In this document: positions 1,250 to 7,197 of the stretch, in pieces
Position numbering within the stretch: position 1 is the first letter of the stretch
Layout: each line of letters begins with the position of its first letter
From: Actinomycetes bacterium
Lineage (GTDB): Bacteria; Actinomycetota; Acidimicrobiia; IMCC26256; JANYLB01
Reading direction: 5' to 3'
DNA: 64,000 nt
NCBI GenBank assembly: GCA_025363815.1
Contig: JANYLB010000037.1
Coordinates: forward strand, 1-64,000
Made by a program: the position numbers and the translations under genes
Notes under the pieces: generated by a model
What the model was told of the DNA's origin: nothing
Databases searched by the model: none
The model's input: the letters and a program-made list of their open reading frames with translations, nothing else

Positions 1250-1858
1250 TCAGGCCGCCGGGAACGCGCGCGCCAGGAACCTCTCGAAGTGGGCGGGGTC
1301 GCTGGCGATGCGAAGGCGCTCCCCGATCCGTTTGACGTCGAGCCCCGGGCAGAAGAACCCGTCGCCTTCGACAAAGAAGTACGGCGACCCCTCCACTCCC
1401 CGCCTGCGTCCTTCCTCCCAGTCTGCATCGACCGTCGCGCGGTCTCCGGCAGTTGCGGGGCCGACATCGTGTGCACGCGCGATGTCGGCGAGAACGTCGG
1501 CCGCCGCGATGTCGCGACCTTTCTCGAAGAGAGTGTGCCGCAAGGCCAGGCTGACAAGTTCGCCGACCGACGGGCTCCGCCGGTAGGCCGCGGCCGCGAG
1601 CGCCAACGCCGGTAGCGAGGTCGTCGGAAACCGCGTGGCGTCAAACCCCACGAAGAGATCGGGCGCGATCTGCTCCCGCAACTCATGAATCTCCTCGGCC
1701 ACTAGGGCGGCGGCGAGCGGCTCCCCATTCACCAGCTCGAGCGGCCACGCCCGCACGCGCAAGACAGCGGTAGAGCCGAGTTCGCGCCGTCGATCGAGGA
1801 GCCGTCGCAACCCCACGTGGGTGAAAGGGCACAGGACATCGGCGAAGACCTCGATCAT
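1250..1858 (-). CDS. DsbA-family / 2-hydroxychromene-2-carboxylate-isomerase-like thioredoxin-fold protein
   Basis: The protein has 202 residues and begins MIEVFADVLCPFTHVGL. The CPFT motif at residues 10-13 sits at the usual DsbA/GST-kappa active-site position but has only one cysteine, as in HCCA isomerase-like members rather than disulfide oxidases. The mid region (FATTSLPALALAA-like, here RFPTTSLPALALAAAAY) and SPYFFVEGDGFFCPGLDV near the C-terminus match the DsbA-like fold with its cis-Pro loop. The ATG overlaps the stop of the upstream amidohydrolase as ATGA, so this is the last gene of the coupled operon. A glutathione- or mycothiol-independent isomerase or reductase role is inference. 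Confidence 0.8.
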   Translation of the reverse strand: MIEVFADVLCPFTHVGLRRLLDRRRELGSTAVLRVRAWPLELVNGEPLAAALVAEEIHELREQIAPDLFVGFDATRFPTTSLPALALAAAAYRRSPSVGELVSLALRHTLFEKGRDIAAADVLADIARAHDVGPATAGDRATVDADWEEGRRRGVEGSPYFFVEGDGFFCPGLDVKRIGERLRIASDPAHFERFLARAFPAA

Positions 1859-3111
1859 CCAGGGATCGCCTCCACCCCGGTGATCCACGGCCGGCCGGCG
1901 GCCCGAAGCCCATGCCACTTGCCCAGGTCGGCGCCCGTCTGACCGAGCTCTCCGGGGGTTGGCCCGATGTGATCAGCAAGCGGGCGGAGCGCATCGACGT
2001 CGAAGCCGTACAGCTCGGCCGCGTTGAGACCGAGGATCCGCTCGGTCTCGTCGACCGGGATGTCATGGAACGCGTCACGGAGCCAGGCACGCGTGTGCGG
2101 CCACGTACCTTCGGGGTGAGGAAAGTCGTTCCCCCACATCAAGTTGCCGACACCGATCTCGTAGCGCCGCGCCAGCTCCCTCCGGCGTGTGTTGGAAGCG
2201 CCGATGGAGCAATTGCGGTCGAAGTAGTCGCTCGGCCGCATCGAGAGGTGCGCTGTCAGCTGTTCGCCGAGCTTCTTGGCACCGTGCTCGCGGTCGTACG
2301 CGGTGTCCATCATCCAGAGAAGGTCGGCGGCCCAGAACGCGCCACATTCCGTGGCGACGAAACGCAGGCCGGGGTGACGCTCGAACACGCCGGCCCACAA
2401 AAGAAAGTGCAGTGGACGGGTCGACCACCAACGCACCTCGGTGACGTACATCCCGACATACGCGCCGTACGACGCCTTGTCGGCATTGCCCGAGTGCACG
2501 TGCACCGGCATAGACAGCTCCTCGCACGCGGCCCACACCGGTTCGTACACCGGATCGTGGTACGGCGGGTACGGCGCCCACATCGACGGGATCAGAATGC
2601 CACCGCGGAGCCCCGATTCGCGCGCGCGGTGGATCTCTGTCACCGCGGCGGGAACGTCGAAGATCGGGACCAGCGCGATCCCGGCTCGCCGTTCGGGCGA
2701 CAGCTGACACATCTCCGCGAGCCACCGATTGTGCGCGCGTGCGCCCGCGAGGAGCAGCGTCGGATCCGCGTCGCCTCCAGCACTGAGCCCCGCGCCGAAC
2801 GGAGCCGAGGCTCCTCCCGACACCGCGTCGGCGTCGGGGAAGAGCACCTCTCCCGCCACGCCGTCGGCTTCGAGCTCCGCGTCACGGCGGGCGGCATCCC
2901 AACCGCCCGCCAGACCCTCCTCGTTCTCGCGCTCCCACTCCTCGGCGAACTCCTCGTTGAGGATTCCCCGCTGCGCCAGATCCCTGAGCCGCGCCCGGTC
3001 GGCCAGGTTGTCGTCGAAGGCCTCCCGAAACTCGGGGTCGAGCCACTCGCGGTACTGCTCGTTCGGCAATCCTGCATGGCAGTCGGCGGAGATCACGAGG
3101 TATCGGTCCAT
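1855..3111 (-). CDS. Amidohydrolase-2 family metal-dependent hydrolase/decarboxylase (paralogue 1)
   Basis: The protein has 418 residues and begins MDRYLVISADCHAG, the characteristic opening of a large uncharacterised clade of the amidohydrolase_2 (PF04909-type) TIM barrels. Other landmarks are HNRWLAEMC, MPVHVHSG, FVATECGAFW and WGNDFPHPEGTWP near the C-terminus, which supply candidate metal and catalytic His/Asp residues. Members of the superfamily are hydrolases or non-oxidative decarboxylases. I chose the ATG at 3111 because GGAG lies seven bases upstream and the paralogue at 4808-6040 starts at the same place; a GTG at 3117 would overlap the SDR stop as GTGA. The substrate is unknown. 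Confidence 0.85.
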   Translation of the reverse strand: MDRYLVISADCHAGLPNEQYREWLDPEFREAFDDNLADRARLRDLAQRGILNEEFAEEWERENEEGLAGGWDAARRDAELEADGVAGEVLFPDADAVSGGASAPFGAGLSAGGDADPTLLLAGARAHNRWLAEMCQLSPERRAGIALVPIFDVPAAVTEIHRARESGLRGGILIPSMWAPYPPYHDPVYEPVWAACEELSMPVHVHSGNADKASYGAYVGMYVTEVRWWSTRPLHFLLWAGVFERHPGLRFVATECGAFWAADLLWMMDTAYDREHGAKKLGEQLTAHLSMRPSDYFDRNCSIGASNTRRRELARRYEIGVGNLMWGNDFPHPEGTWPHTRAWLRDAFHDIPVDETERILGLNAAELYGFDVDALRPLADHIGPTPGELGQTGADLGKWHGLRAAGRPWITGVEAIPG

Positions 3112-3113
3112 CG

Positions 3114-3995
3114 TCACTCTCCGAGGTCACGGATGTAGGCAGGGTTGGTGCGGGCGAGCATCGAAGCCGCCCGCGCGGTGATCTGGCCGTCGGAGCGCTC
3201 GCTGGGCGGCAAGATCCAGAACTGATCGGCAAGAATCGCCGCCGCGACACGGCCAGCAACCTCTTCGGTCGGCGTGTAGACGAGGTCAACGCCGGCGTCG
3301 GCCATCGCTTTCTCGAACGATTCGATGGTGGTCTTCGGCTTCGACGGCGGGCTCGCGTTCGCGTACTCGGCCGGCCGGTTGCGCCACGACGAGAAGAGGC
3401 CGGTGCGCAGGATATTCGGACCGGGGAACAACACCGACGCTGACACCGCTGCGCCCACCTGCTGCAGCTGGGCCCAGAGCACCTCGGTGAGCGTCACAAC
3501 CGTCGACTTGCCGGCCGCGTAGATCGCCGTGCTCGGCAACGGCGCGATACCCCCGTTGCCCGAAGATGTGTTGACTACGTGACCCGGCTCACCCGACGCG
3601 ATCATCCCCGGCACGAACGCCTTGATCCCGTGGATCACACCCCACACGTTCACCCCGAACGCCCAGCGCCAGTCGTTGAGCTCGTGGTCCCACATCTGAC
3701 CGGAGGCGCCCGCGCCGACGCCGGCGTTGTTGCAGAGCACGTGAACACCACCGCGGGCATCGAGGGTGAAGTCACGCAGACGCTCGACCGAGCCGTAGTC
3801 GGAGACGTCTGTCACCGTGCCGATCACGTCGAGCCCGTCGGCGCACAGATCGGCGACGGTCGCGTCGAGCGCCGGAGCCTCGACGTCGGCGAGCACGACC
3901 TTCATGCCGTCGCGCGCGAACCGTTCCCCCATAGCCCTCCCGACGCCGCTGGCGCCGCCGGTAACAACCGCGACTAGCCCCGACAGATCGTCCAT
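3114..3995 (-). CDS. Short-chain dehydrogenase/reductase (SDR)
   Basis: The protein has 293 residues. The NAD(P)-binding motif VVTGGASGVG is at residues 9-18, NNAG lies near residue 90, and the catalytic Ser and YxxxK are in NTSSGNG...AIYAAGKS. ADVEAP after the second strand suggests NAD(H) preference because of its aspartate. The ATG at 3995 shares one base with the stop of the acetoacetate-decarboxylase-like gene (TGATG), and its own stop overlaps the next gene, so translation is coupled. The C-terminal PPSERSDGQITARAASMLAR tail resembles SDRs found in lipid and aromatic catabolic operons. The substrate is not predictable. Confidence 0.9.
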   Translation of the reverse strand: MDDLSGLVAVVTGGASGVGRAMGERFARDGMKVVLADVEAPALDATVADLCADGLDVIGTVTDVSDYGSVERLRDFTLDARGGVHVLCNNAGVGAGASGQMWDHELNDWRWAFGVNVWGVIHGIKAFVPGMIASGEPGHVVNTSSGNGGIAPLPSTAIYAAGKSTVVTLTEVLWAQLQQVGAAVSASVLFPGPNILRTGLFSSWRNRPAEYANASPPSKPKTTIESFEKAMADAGVDLVYTPTEEVAGRVAAAILADQFWILPPSERSDGQITARAASMLARTNPAYIRDLGE

Positions 3996-4789
3996 CAGAG
4001 GTCGTCCGCGATGGGCGACAGGTCGTCGTAGCGTTGATGCGCGAACGGCAGCAGCCACTCGGCCGGCACCCGACCCACGATCTCGCCTCGTTGGATCGAG
4101 CGGCGCTCCGAGATGGTCACGGATACGACCCGTCGGACCGCCAGGTCGACCACCGGGTCGAAGCGCGACTCCCGCAGGATGATCTCGCCGTCGACCGTCG
4201 AAGCCACCCGTGTCGTCTCTTCACGGTGGCAGTAGACGAGGGCCGGCTCCGAGTCGAACCCCTTGCCGTCAGGAGCCCGGAGGAACTTGAAGTAGAAGTC
4301 GGTGCGCTGACCGTCATCGACCGCGACCTCGGCTCCGACCGTGCCGCGCACCTCGATGATCGTCGTACCGAGTCGCGAGACCCTGCCGACGACATGGCCT
4401 CCGGGCCCGTCACCGTCTCGTTCGAGAGTCACCTCGGCGAGCTTCTTCGGCTCGCCGAACGTTTCCCTCCCTCCGATCACCGACTGCTCAGTCGTCATGG
4501 GCATGACGAGCGGGTAGTTGCCGATCGTGCCCTCGTGGCGCGCTTGCACCGCAAAGGTGCCGGCCCCGAACGGAGGCATTCCGCGGCCGAGATCGACCGT
4601 AGCTATCGACACCCTCACGAGGGGTCGGTCGGTCGGTTCGAGCGGTCGCGGCAACACCGCGGCCACCACCTCGGGATCGGTCTCGTAGATCGCGGTCAGA
4701 GACGTCGACCAAGCACCTACCGATGTCGCCGAGATCTCTCGGTCTTCGAGCTCCTCCGTGGTGCGAGCGCCGTAGCGGACGCGTGCCAT
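3995..4789 (-). CDS. Acetoacetate decarboxylase-family protein
   Basis: The protein has 264 residues. GRETFGEPKKLAEV near residue 110 matches the acetoacetate decarboxylase signature, in which the lysine of PKK forms the Schiff base. Upstream landmarks are PLVMPMTTEQ and ARHEGTIGNYP. AAGGAG lies a few bases before the ATG. Family members include true acetoacetate decarboxylases but also aldolase- or hydratase-like enzymes acting on other 2-oxo acids. The position between two amidohydrolase paralogues, with a coupled SDR, suggests a catabolic pathway rather than solventogenesis; this is inference. Confidence 0.85.
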   Translation of the reverse strand: MARVRYGARTTEELEDREISATSVGAWSTSLTAIYETDPEVVAAVLPRPLEPTDRPLVRVSIATVDLGRGMPPFGAGTFAVQARHEGTIGNYPLVMPMTTEQSVIGGRETFGEPKKLAEVTLERDGDGPGGHVVGRVSRLGTTIIEVRGTVGAEVAVDDGQRTDFYFKFLRAPDGKGFDSEPALVYCHREETTRVASTVDGEIILRESRFDPVVDLAVRRVVSVTISERRSIQRGEIVGRVPAEWLLPFAHQRYDDLSPIADDL

Positions 4790-4807
4790 GACACTCCTTC
4801 TCGAGCT

Positions 4808-6040
4808 TCAGCTCATCAGGGCGGCGAGGGCGAACGCCGGACAGCGCAGCGCGTCGCCGGGGATGTCGGACGCCGGGAGCGGTCGCGCGACCTCTTCGAT
4901 CGTCGGCCCGATCTGCGCGACAACCGGCGCGAGCGCGTCGAGATCGAACCCGTACACACGGGCCGCGTTGCCACCGATCATCGCCGCGATCTCGACCGGG
5001 TCGACCCCGGCGAACGCCAACCGCAGGTGCTCGTGGCTGTAGGGCCAGCAGCCCTCGCGGTGAGGGAAGTCGCTACCCCACATGATGCGTTCGACGCCGA
5101 CCGCGTGACGCATCTGCACCTCTTCGCGGCGAATGAAGCTCGACCCGACGTGGCACTGGCGGGCCCAGTACTCGCTCGGCTCGAGCGAGAGGCGACCCAT
5201 CAACTCGGCACCGAAGATGTGTTCCTGCGACCCGTCCGCGCCGGCCTGACCCGACATGCGGGCCTTGTAGTAGTCGAGGGTCATGAGCATCTCGGGTATC
5301 CACGAGGTGCCCTGTTCGGTGAACACGAACTGCAGCGCCGGATGGCGGTCCATCACGCCCGCATAGATGAGCTGCCAAAGCGTCCGGTGCGCGTACCAGG
5401 TGGCCTCGACGAGGAACATCGCCTTCGCCTCGGGGTAGTCGCCGTAGTCGGGTGAGCCGCTGCCGGTGTGATGGTTCATCGGCAGAGCTAAATCTTCACA
5501 CGCGGCCCACATCGGTTCGTAGTCGGGCGCGTAGAGCGGCGGAAGCCCCGAACCTTCCGGAGTGCCGGGCAGCAGCACCCCACCGGTGAGTCCGGCACCG
5601 GCCGCCCAACGGATCTCGGCGACCGCGAGATCGACGTCGTGCAGCAGAACCTGCGCGATGCCGGCCCGGCGACCGGGCGCTGCCGAACAGAAGTCGGCAA
5701 GCCAACGGTTGTGGGCGCGCAGACCCTCCCAGCGCAGAGCGAGATCACCCGCGGTCGCGCCTGGCGGTTGGTGCACCAAGGAAGCTTGCGGAAAGAACGG
5801 CGGGATGGTGTTCGGGAAGATGACCTCGCCGACCACACCATCGGCATCAAGCTCAGCCAGACGCCGGTCGCTGTCCCAGTTGCGCGGGGCGTCGGCACCC
5901 TGGAGATCGTCGTAAAGATTCTCGAATGCGGCCCGCCAACAGTCGAACTCATCGTGGAGCGCGCTCGGCAGGTACGGCCGGTAGTCGTCGATCGCGCCAC
6001 CGCCGTGGCAGTCGGCCGAGATGACCGCGTAGCGATCCAA
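4808..6040 (-). CDS. Amidohydrolase-2 family metal-dependent hydrolase/decarboxylase (paralogue 2)
   Basis: The protein has 410 residues from the TTG at 6040 (LDRYAVISADCHGG), chosen because GAGGGGG precedes it and the alignment with the paralogue at 1855-3111 begins there. The ATG at 6067 (nine codons earlier) has no visible ribosome-binding site. Motifs shared with paralogue 1 include VISADCH, HNRWLADF, GIAQV, MNHHTGSG, WGSDFPHREGCWP and a YGFDLDALAPV tail. It is the first gene of the operon: the acetoacetate-decarboxylase-like gene follows after 18 bases. Having two divergent paralogues in one operon suggests they act on successive or alternative intermediates. Confidence 0.85.
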   Translation of the reverse strand: MDRYAVISADCHGGGAIDDYRPYLPSALHDEFDCWRAAFENLYDDLQGADAPRNWDSDRRLAELDADGVVGEVIFPNTIPPFFPQASLVHQPPGATAGDLALRWEGLRAHNRWLADFCSAAPGRRAGIAQVLLHDVDLAVAEIRWAAGAGLTGGVLLPGTPEGSGLPPLYAPDYEPMWAACEDLALPMNHHTGSGSPDYGDYPEAKAMFLVEATWYAHRTLWQLIYAGVMDRHPALQFVFTEQGTSWIPEMLMTLDYYKARMSGQAGADGSQEHIFGAELMGRLSLEPSEYWARQCHVGSSFIRREEVQMRHAVGVERIMWGSDFPHREGCWPYSHEHLRLAFAGVDPVEIAAMIGGNAARVYGFDLDALAPVVAQIGPTIEEVARPLPASDIPGDALRCPAFALAALMS

Positions 6041-6117
6041 AGCACCCCCTCGAACGTCGGAGACCATCCGTAGACCGGGCCCCCGCCAGCAACGTACCTC
6101 ATTGCGCCCGCACGGCC

Positions 6118-7197
6118 TCAGGTGTGGGTGATGACGCTGCGGATGACCTCGCCCGTCTCCATGGCCCGGAACGCGTCGTTCACGTCGTCGAGACCGATCG
6201 TCGCGCTCACCATCTCCGCGATGTCGAGTCGACCGGCCTCCACGAGCCCGACGAAACGGGGAAAGTCACGCCGTACCTGGGCCGAGCCGTACACGCATCC
6301 GAGCAGCTTCTTCTCGTCGTAGAAGAGCCCGAAGCCGCCCAACGTGACCTGTGAGTCCATGCGCGGCATTCCGATGATGACGACGGAACCGCCGCGCCGG
6401 GCCGTGGACCAGGCCTGCTTGATCGTCTCGGGCAACCCGATCACCTCGAACGCGTAGTCAACACCACGACCGCCGGTGAGCGCGCGTACCTGTGCGACCG
6501 GATCACCCGCCGCGGGGTCGACCAGGTCGGTCGCGCCGAGTTGATCCGCAGCCTTGCGCTTCAGCTCGACGGGATCGACCGCGATGATGCGGCTCGCACC
6601 CGCGATGCGAGCCCCCTGGACAACCGCTTGGCCGACACCGCCGCATCCGATCACGGCAACGCTGCTTCCCGGCTCGACCCGCGCCGTGTTGAGTGCTGCT
6701 CCTACTCCTGTCGTCACGCCGCATCCGATCAGCGCGAGCTGCTCGTCGGGGAGATCCGTCTCGATCTTCACCACGCAAGCCTCGTGCACCGTCATCTGGT
6801 CGGCGAACGTACCGAGCGCGGTGAACGCGTTCGCGGTGCTGCCGTCGGACCGGGTGACCTTAGGGAGGAAGTTGATCTTGTTCCCGAGCTCGCACAGATT
6901 GGACTGCCCGTGCAGGCAGAAGAAGCACGATCCGCAAGCGGGCACGAACGCGGCGATCACCCGGTCACCTACCTGCACCCGACTGACTTCGGGTCCGACC
7001 CATTCGACGGTTCCTGCGCCTTCGTGACCGAGAATGCAGGGAGGCGGCATGGCGACCGTGCCGTTCGTGGCGGAAAGGTCGGAGTGGCAGACGCCGCTCG
7101 CGCCGATCCGCACGACGACATCACCGAGACCGGGTTCCAACGGCGTGACTTCTTCCACCGAGAGCTCCGGCTCACCGACGTAGATCGCTGCCCGCAT
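6118..7197 (-). CDS. Zinc-dependent medium-chain alcohol dehydrogenase (class III-like)
   Basis: The protein has 359 residues. Catalytic zinc ligands are in GVCHSDL and ILGHEGAG; structural zinc cysteines are in CGSCFFCLHGQSNLCE. The Rossmann motif AVIGCGGVG near residue 195 ends in IIAVDP, whose aspartate favours NAD. MRAAIYVGEPEL at the ATG at 7197 is the normal family start, and GAGGAGG lies about eight bases upstream, so the longer ORF in the track is not the gene. It probably oxidises an alcohol or aldehyde adduct. It lies 77 bases upstream of the amidohydrolase operon and could feed it. Confidence 0.9.
   Translation of the reverse strand: MRAAIYVGEPELSVEEVTPLEPGLGDVVVRIGASGVCHSDLSATNGTVAMPPPCILGHEGAGTVEWVGPEVSRVQVGDRVIAAFVPACGSCFFCLHGQSNLCELGNKINFLPKVTRSDGSTANAFTALGTFADQMTVHEACVVKIETDLPDEQLALIGCGVTTGVGAALNTARVEPGSSVAVIGCGGVGQAVVQGARIAGASRIIAVDPVELKRKAADQLGATDLVDPAAGDPVAQVRALTGGRGVDYAFEVIGLPETIKQAWSTARRGGSVVIIGMPRMDSQVTLGGFGLFYDEKKLLGCVYGSAQVRRDFPRFVGLVEAGRLDIAEMVSATIGLDDVNDAFRAMETGEVIRSVITHT

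Follow-up and report, generated by a model that had tools for sequence, protein, structure and literature searches.

A conserved and apparently undescribed actinobacterial four-gene unit encoding two predicted dinuclear-metal oxygenases of the amidohydrolase fold

Among proteins called 'amidohydrolases', dinuclear oxygenases are being recognised as a class; few of its members have been characterised, and some of these contain a rare Mn/Fe cofactor. The name amidohydrolase-related dinuclear oxygenases is in use for such enzymes (PMC10811679). PtmU3, the C-5 hydroxylase of platensimycin and platencin (PDB 6omp), contains two irons and acts on diterpenoid-CoA intermediates (described in PMC10127204). 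AibH2 holds a Mn/Fe cofactor (PMC10401708) and is part of the 2-aminoisobutyrate hydroxylase AibH1H2 (PDB 8fun), in which two amidohydrolase-fold paralogues are encoded together and AibH1 is a mononuclear, auxiliary protein (PMC7782822, PMC12141560). An extra acidic residue, D342 in AibH2 and E313 in PtmU3, has been reported only in dinuclear members (PMC7782822), and AibH1 lacks it. The structure of DitZ from Rhodococcus rhodochrous (PDB 8uyr) has also been solved, with a D-x-x-H-x-D loop; our literature search on its function found no paper.

Here we compare with these systems a locus in a 64,000-nucleotide stretch of actinobacterial DNA (the window), which encodes two amidohydrolase-fold paralogues, AH1 and AH2, together with an acetoacetate-decarboxylase-like (ADC-like) protein and a short-chain dehydrogenase (SDR; Table 1). 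A sequence-only reading had described six genes, and their positions, on the minus strand, are borne out by the sequence and by concordant Pfam matches. Five of the six form the run that it described as translationally coupled or nearly so, with junctions that overlap or are 18 bp long. The 18-bp gap, read from the sequence, separates AH1 from ADC. The ADC stop overlaps the SDR start in TGATG (3997-3993), the SDR stop overlaps the AH2 start in GTGA (3117-3114; an alternative ATG for AH2 lies at 3111), and the AH2 stop overlaps the start of the DsbA-like gene in ATGA (1858-1855). The zinc alcohol dehydrogenase (ADH) gene ends 50 bp before AH1 starts. Gene calls were made with tblastn and a codon-usage caller.

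Table 1. Genes of the locus, with product, coordinates in the window, strand and family match.
AH1, amidohydrolase-fold protein, predicted dinuclear-metal oxygenase	4808..6067	-	Pfam PF04909 (Amidohydro_2)
ADC-like protein, acetoacetate-decarboxylase family, Schiff-base lysines K115/K116	3995..4789	-	Pfam PF06314 (ADC)
SDR, short-chain dehydrogenase	3114..3995	-	Pfam adh_short; above NCBIfam PRK06194.1 cutoff
AH2, AH1 paralogue, predicted dinuclear-metal oxygenase	1855..3117	-	Pfam PF04909 (Amidohydro_2)
DsbA-like thioredoxin-fold protein, translationally coupled to AH2 in the window	1250..1858	-	Pfam DSBA
Zinc alcohol dehydrogenase (ADH), upstream neighbour	6118..7197	-	Pfam ADH_zinc_N + ADH_N

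The conserved unit is AH1, ADC, SDR and AH2 (about 1855-6067), which we found in Acidimicrobiia, Frankia/Pseudofrankia, Streptomyces and mycobacterium-like genomes. Among 45 distinct ADC loci, counted by hand from the tblastn table with the duplicates L066 and L069 excluded, AH1 occurred 40 times, AH2 42 times and a neighbouring SDR 32 times. No locus lacked both AH1 and AH2, and several of the absences fell at contig ends. The grouping is not due to chance, given this recurrence and the mere 19 Amidohydro_2 matches in the source genome (2.7 Mb, 89% complete). A protein search with ADC returned 27 named loci and matches in 29 of 61 related genomes, and a strong ADC match occurred in 11 of 397 genomes drawn from the phylum, the window's own genome included. 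Five of these 11 genomes represent one genus, and their loci contain SDR, ADC, AH1 and AH2; because MmpS- and MmpL-type genes lie near one of these loci, the genus looks mycobacterial. Plasmid records yielded only more distant contexts.

The sequence-only reading had proposed an uncharacterised catabolic gene set with two amidohydrolase paralogues around the ADC-like protein and SDR, and had named a neighbourhood not conserved in relatives as grounds for giving it up. The neighbourhood is kept across relatives, and the set is conserved, apparently undescribed and probably catabolic. We found no description of it in the literature, although a search by strict word combinations that left most subscription journals uncovered is weak evidence of novelty. 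Overall, the four-gene unit is real and conserved, and apparently undescribed. A variant of the unit is seen at L103:3822-5974, L104:5975-8103 and L105:7674-9715, where AH2 stands with a more distant ADC-like gene (37-39%) and without AH1.

The two outer genes fared differently. In the closest relative found (L137), AH1 and AH2 are 77-80% identical to those of the window. There, as in the other of the two nearest relatives (L039), a cytochrome P450 gene follows AH2 at the place taken in the window by the DsbA-like gene; a P450 gene also follows AH2 in L090 and L096. We rejected both outer genes as parts of the pathway: neither the DsbA-like gene nor the zinc ADH has a counterpart adjoining the unit in relatives, and ADH matches in tblastn were only 29-33% identical, farther off and in few loci. 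As a conserved unit, the operon originally proposed comes down to AH1, ADC, SDR and AH2. The DsbA-like protein had moreover been taken for an HCCA-isomerase-like enzyme of the pathway, a role left unsupported by its absence from related loci, the lack of any solved-structure match at E<=0.001 and its CPFT motif, which is not CxxC.

PtmU3 and DitZ are the nearest solved structures of both AH1 and AH2 by single sequence, profile and fold. In a profile search of solved structures, AH1 matched PtmU3 at E 9e-40, DitZ at 4e-38 and 5-carboxyvanillate decarboxylase at 1e-19; the corresponding values for AH2 were 6e-38, 3e-30 and 7e-20. AlphaFold models (pLDDT 90 for AH1 and 87 for AH2) likewise gave PtmU3 and DitZ as the first Foldseek matches, and the models and Pfam together confirm the PF04909 TIM-barrel fold. 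PtmU3 is the top match by all three measures, with DitZ second by profile and fold. Identity to PtmU3 is below 30%, its gene context differs and the unit holds two paralogues; identity to DitZ is about 20-24% in the fold alignment, and similarity to AibH1H2 is below that to PtmU3.

The metal ligands point in the same direction. With ligand positions taken from AibH2 (PMC7782822) and LynB7 (PMC10127204), those of AH1 are D19, H21, H200, E251, D333, H336 and the acidic E338, and those of AH2 are D12, H14, H208, E257, D331, H334 and the acidic E336. The AH1 residues are invariant in 37 orthologues (36 for the N-terminal pair, one sequence being truncated) and the AH2 residues in 39 of 39, so that the dinuclear set D-x-H, H, E, D-x-x-H-x-E, which is also the set of AibH2, is kept in 76 aligned orthologues, one of them without its N-terminus. 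The N-terminal D-x-H was assigned by motif and position, the PtmU3 profile alignments beginning after it. The acidic residue two positions past the last His (E338 in 37/37, E336 in 39/39) lies in a D-x-x-H-x-E loop shared with PtmU3, where the Glu is E313; unlike in AibH1H2, both paralogues have it. On sequence and models, AH1 and AH2 are best read as predicted dinuclear oxygenases. No Rieske ferredoxin gene was recognised among the annotated neighbours of the unit, which counts against this reading and is a difference from AibH1H2. Such a gene adjoins about 90% of AibH2-like proteins (PMC10401708), and is a frequent companion of these members, not a defining feature.

Within a 112-sequence tree built by a quick method, the AH1 and AH2 of the unit fall into separate clades with similar inner branching, each with a Streptomyces, a Frankia and an Acidimicrobiia group; the AH1 clade also takes in two paralogues from the window's own genome and one Rhodococcus protein. 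AH1 and AH2 are thus two old clades evolving in parallel. Their pairwise distances correlate at 0.87, a value reached by none of 2000 label permutations, although the shared ancestry of all four genes accounts for part of it, because ADC and SDR distances also correlate highly. The two genes are adjacent without ADC in L090-L096. Across the 61 genomes, AH1 lies within 4 kb of 28 of 43 AH2 matches, and AH2 within 4 kb of 27 of 59 AH1 matches. The tree and the pairing are compatible with a complex like AibH1H2.

The SDR has an intact classical active site, with N116, S145, Y159 and K163 in 24 of 24 orthologues, and keeps the NAD-type D37 in the orthologue alignment; the NCBIfam family whose cutoff it exceeds has no named function. 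The ADC-like protein resembles acetoacetate decarboxylase (PDB 3bh2 and 3bgt) in the Schiff-base pair K115/K116, which is present in 31 of 31 orthologues at the matching place in the alignment. It differs at the active-site glutamates: position 61 is mostly T/S and is E in none of the 31, and position 76 is A in all of them. It scores 52 bits against the NCBIfam acetoacetate decarboxylase model, which has a cutoff of 150 bits. We rejected a canonical acetoacetate decarboxylase because E61 and E76 are absent; the profile alignment does not extend to Arg29. More distant ADC relatives likewise have no glutamate at 76. On two haloarchaeal plasmids (L140:9965-10783 and L141:7926-8723), ADC relatives that are 35-40% identical lie near IclR, CoA-ligase, enoyl-CoA hydratase and hydantoinase/acetone-carboxylase-like genes, a context that hints at ketone chemistry, without proof.

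Many copies of the unit are adjoined by TetR- or IclR-type regulators, and in some loci a P450, enoyl-CoA hydratase, type III CoA-transferase, CoA ligase or acyl-CoA dehydrogenase gene is nearby, with CoA genes beside the unit in L049 and L132. The regulators and acyl-CoA-type neighbours therefore favour catabolism of an acid, maybe as a CoA thioester. As clues to the substrate the flanking genes were rejected, no neighbour being constant across loci.

We lean, by a little, towards a four-gene oxidative module, probably catabolic, in which the paired oxygenases act before the SDR and the SDR before the ADC-like protein. AH1 and AH2 would be a matched pair of dinuclear (Fe2 or Mn/Fe) oxygenases, whether joined in a heteromeric enzyme or catalysing two linked reactions, and would introduce a hydroxyl group at an unactivated C-H position of a small, hydrophobic acid that may be bound to CoA as a thioester. 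With NAD+ as oxidant, the SDR would turn the resulting alcohol into a ketone. K115 of the ADC-like protein could form a Schiff base with this ketone, and a neighbouring bond would be broken or rearranged by retro-aldol or retro-Claisen cleavage, decarboxylation or dehydration. These steps may not make one fixed pathway, since an SDR is not nearby in 13 of the 45 loci and ADC is absent from some AH1-AH2 pairs. Rather doubtful, in our estimate, is the further-reaching proposal of an undescribed C-C-cleaving pathway, spread over several actinobacterial orders, that would combine a heteromeric AH1-AH2 oxygenase, with a competent dinuclear site in both subunits, and a Schiff-base lyase of the ADC family. 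This paired, widespread set, which includes a dehydrogenase and a Schiff-base enzyme of its own, lends itself to experiment, and cultured Streptomyces and Frankia carry copies.

AH1 and AH2 could instead be independent oxygenases acting in sequence on one substrate, not subunits of one complex. We give this a substantial probability, somewhat short of even. The full ligand set in both proteins, unlike that of AibH1H2, speaks for it, as do the AH1-like proteins without AH2 nearby and the fact that PtmU3 functions without an AibH1-like partner (PMC10401708). Set against these are the parallel evolution of the pair and its adjacency even where ADC is missing, which a two-step pathway would nevertheless produce just as well. 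Tailoring of a natural product, as by PtmU3 in platensimycin biosynthesis, rather than nutrient degradation would suit the identity of the closest solved structure and the presence of the unit in Streptomyces and Frankia. However, the annotated part of the flanks showed no recognisable polyketide, peptide or terpene synthase, and what lies there varies from locus to locus: regulators, transporters and acyl-CoA genes. We regard a tailoring role as unlikely.

The sequence-only reading had called the paralogues decarboxylase-type amidohydrolases, and they might accordingly be mononuclear hydrolases or non-oxidative decarboxylases acting on an aromatic or cyclic carboxylate. PF04909 does include such decarboxylases, and in Foldseek they too match AH1 and AH2 well, because the fold is common to both. 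Yet PtmU3 and DitZ score far higher, and the ligand residues disagree: in the profile alignments, PF04909 decarboxylases for 5-carboxyvanillate and dihydroxybenzoate, as in 4icm and 7wkl, place His opposite E251 and Tyr opposite H336, whereas AH1 and AH2 orthologues invariantly have Glu and His there, together with the extra acidic residue. We rejected the decarboxylase assignment on these residues and judge this alternative very improbable. An aromatic or cyclic carboxylate substrate, having been deduced from the decarboxylase and HCCA-isomerase assignments, is left without support. We therefore retain the reading of AH1 and AH2 as predicted dinuclear oxygenases.

The label 'amidohydrolase 2' can conceal oxygenases. 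In the window's own genome (G000), 12 of the 19 Amidohydro_2 matches have the D-x-x-H-x-[D/E] motif of dinuclear oxygenases, at loci L001, L002, L112, L005, L006, L008, L116, L117 and L118 and in the window, and from sequence some twelve oxygenases of this kind may go by the name of hydrolases in this small genome. The paralogue at L112:5908-7176 (G000:C7:8908-10176) is 49% identical to AH1 and adjoins a shorter Amidohydro_2 gene on the opposite strand (C7:10402-11085), possibly a second oxygenase pair. Elsewhere in the same genome, three consecutive Amidohydro_2 matches extend over about 2.5 kb (G000:C11:11855-14403, L115). On a Rhodococcus gordoniae plasmid, an AH1 homologue (43%; L110:14986-16209) lies in a cluster beside an HsaA-like monooxygenase subunit, CoA transferases and an ABC transporter.
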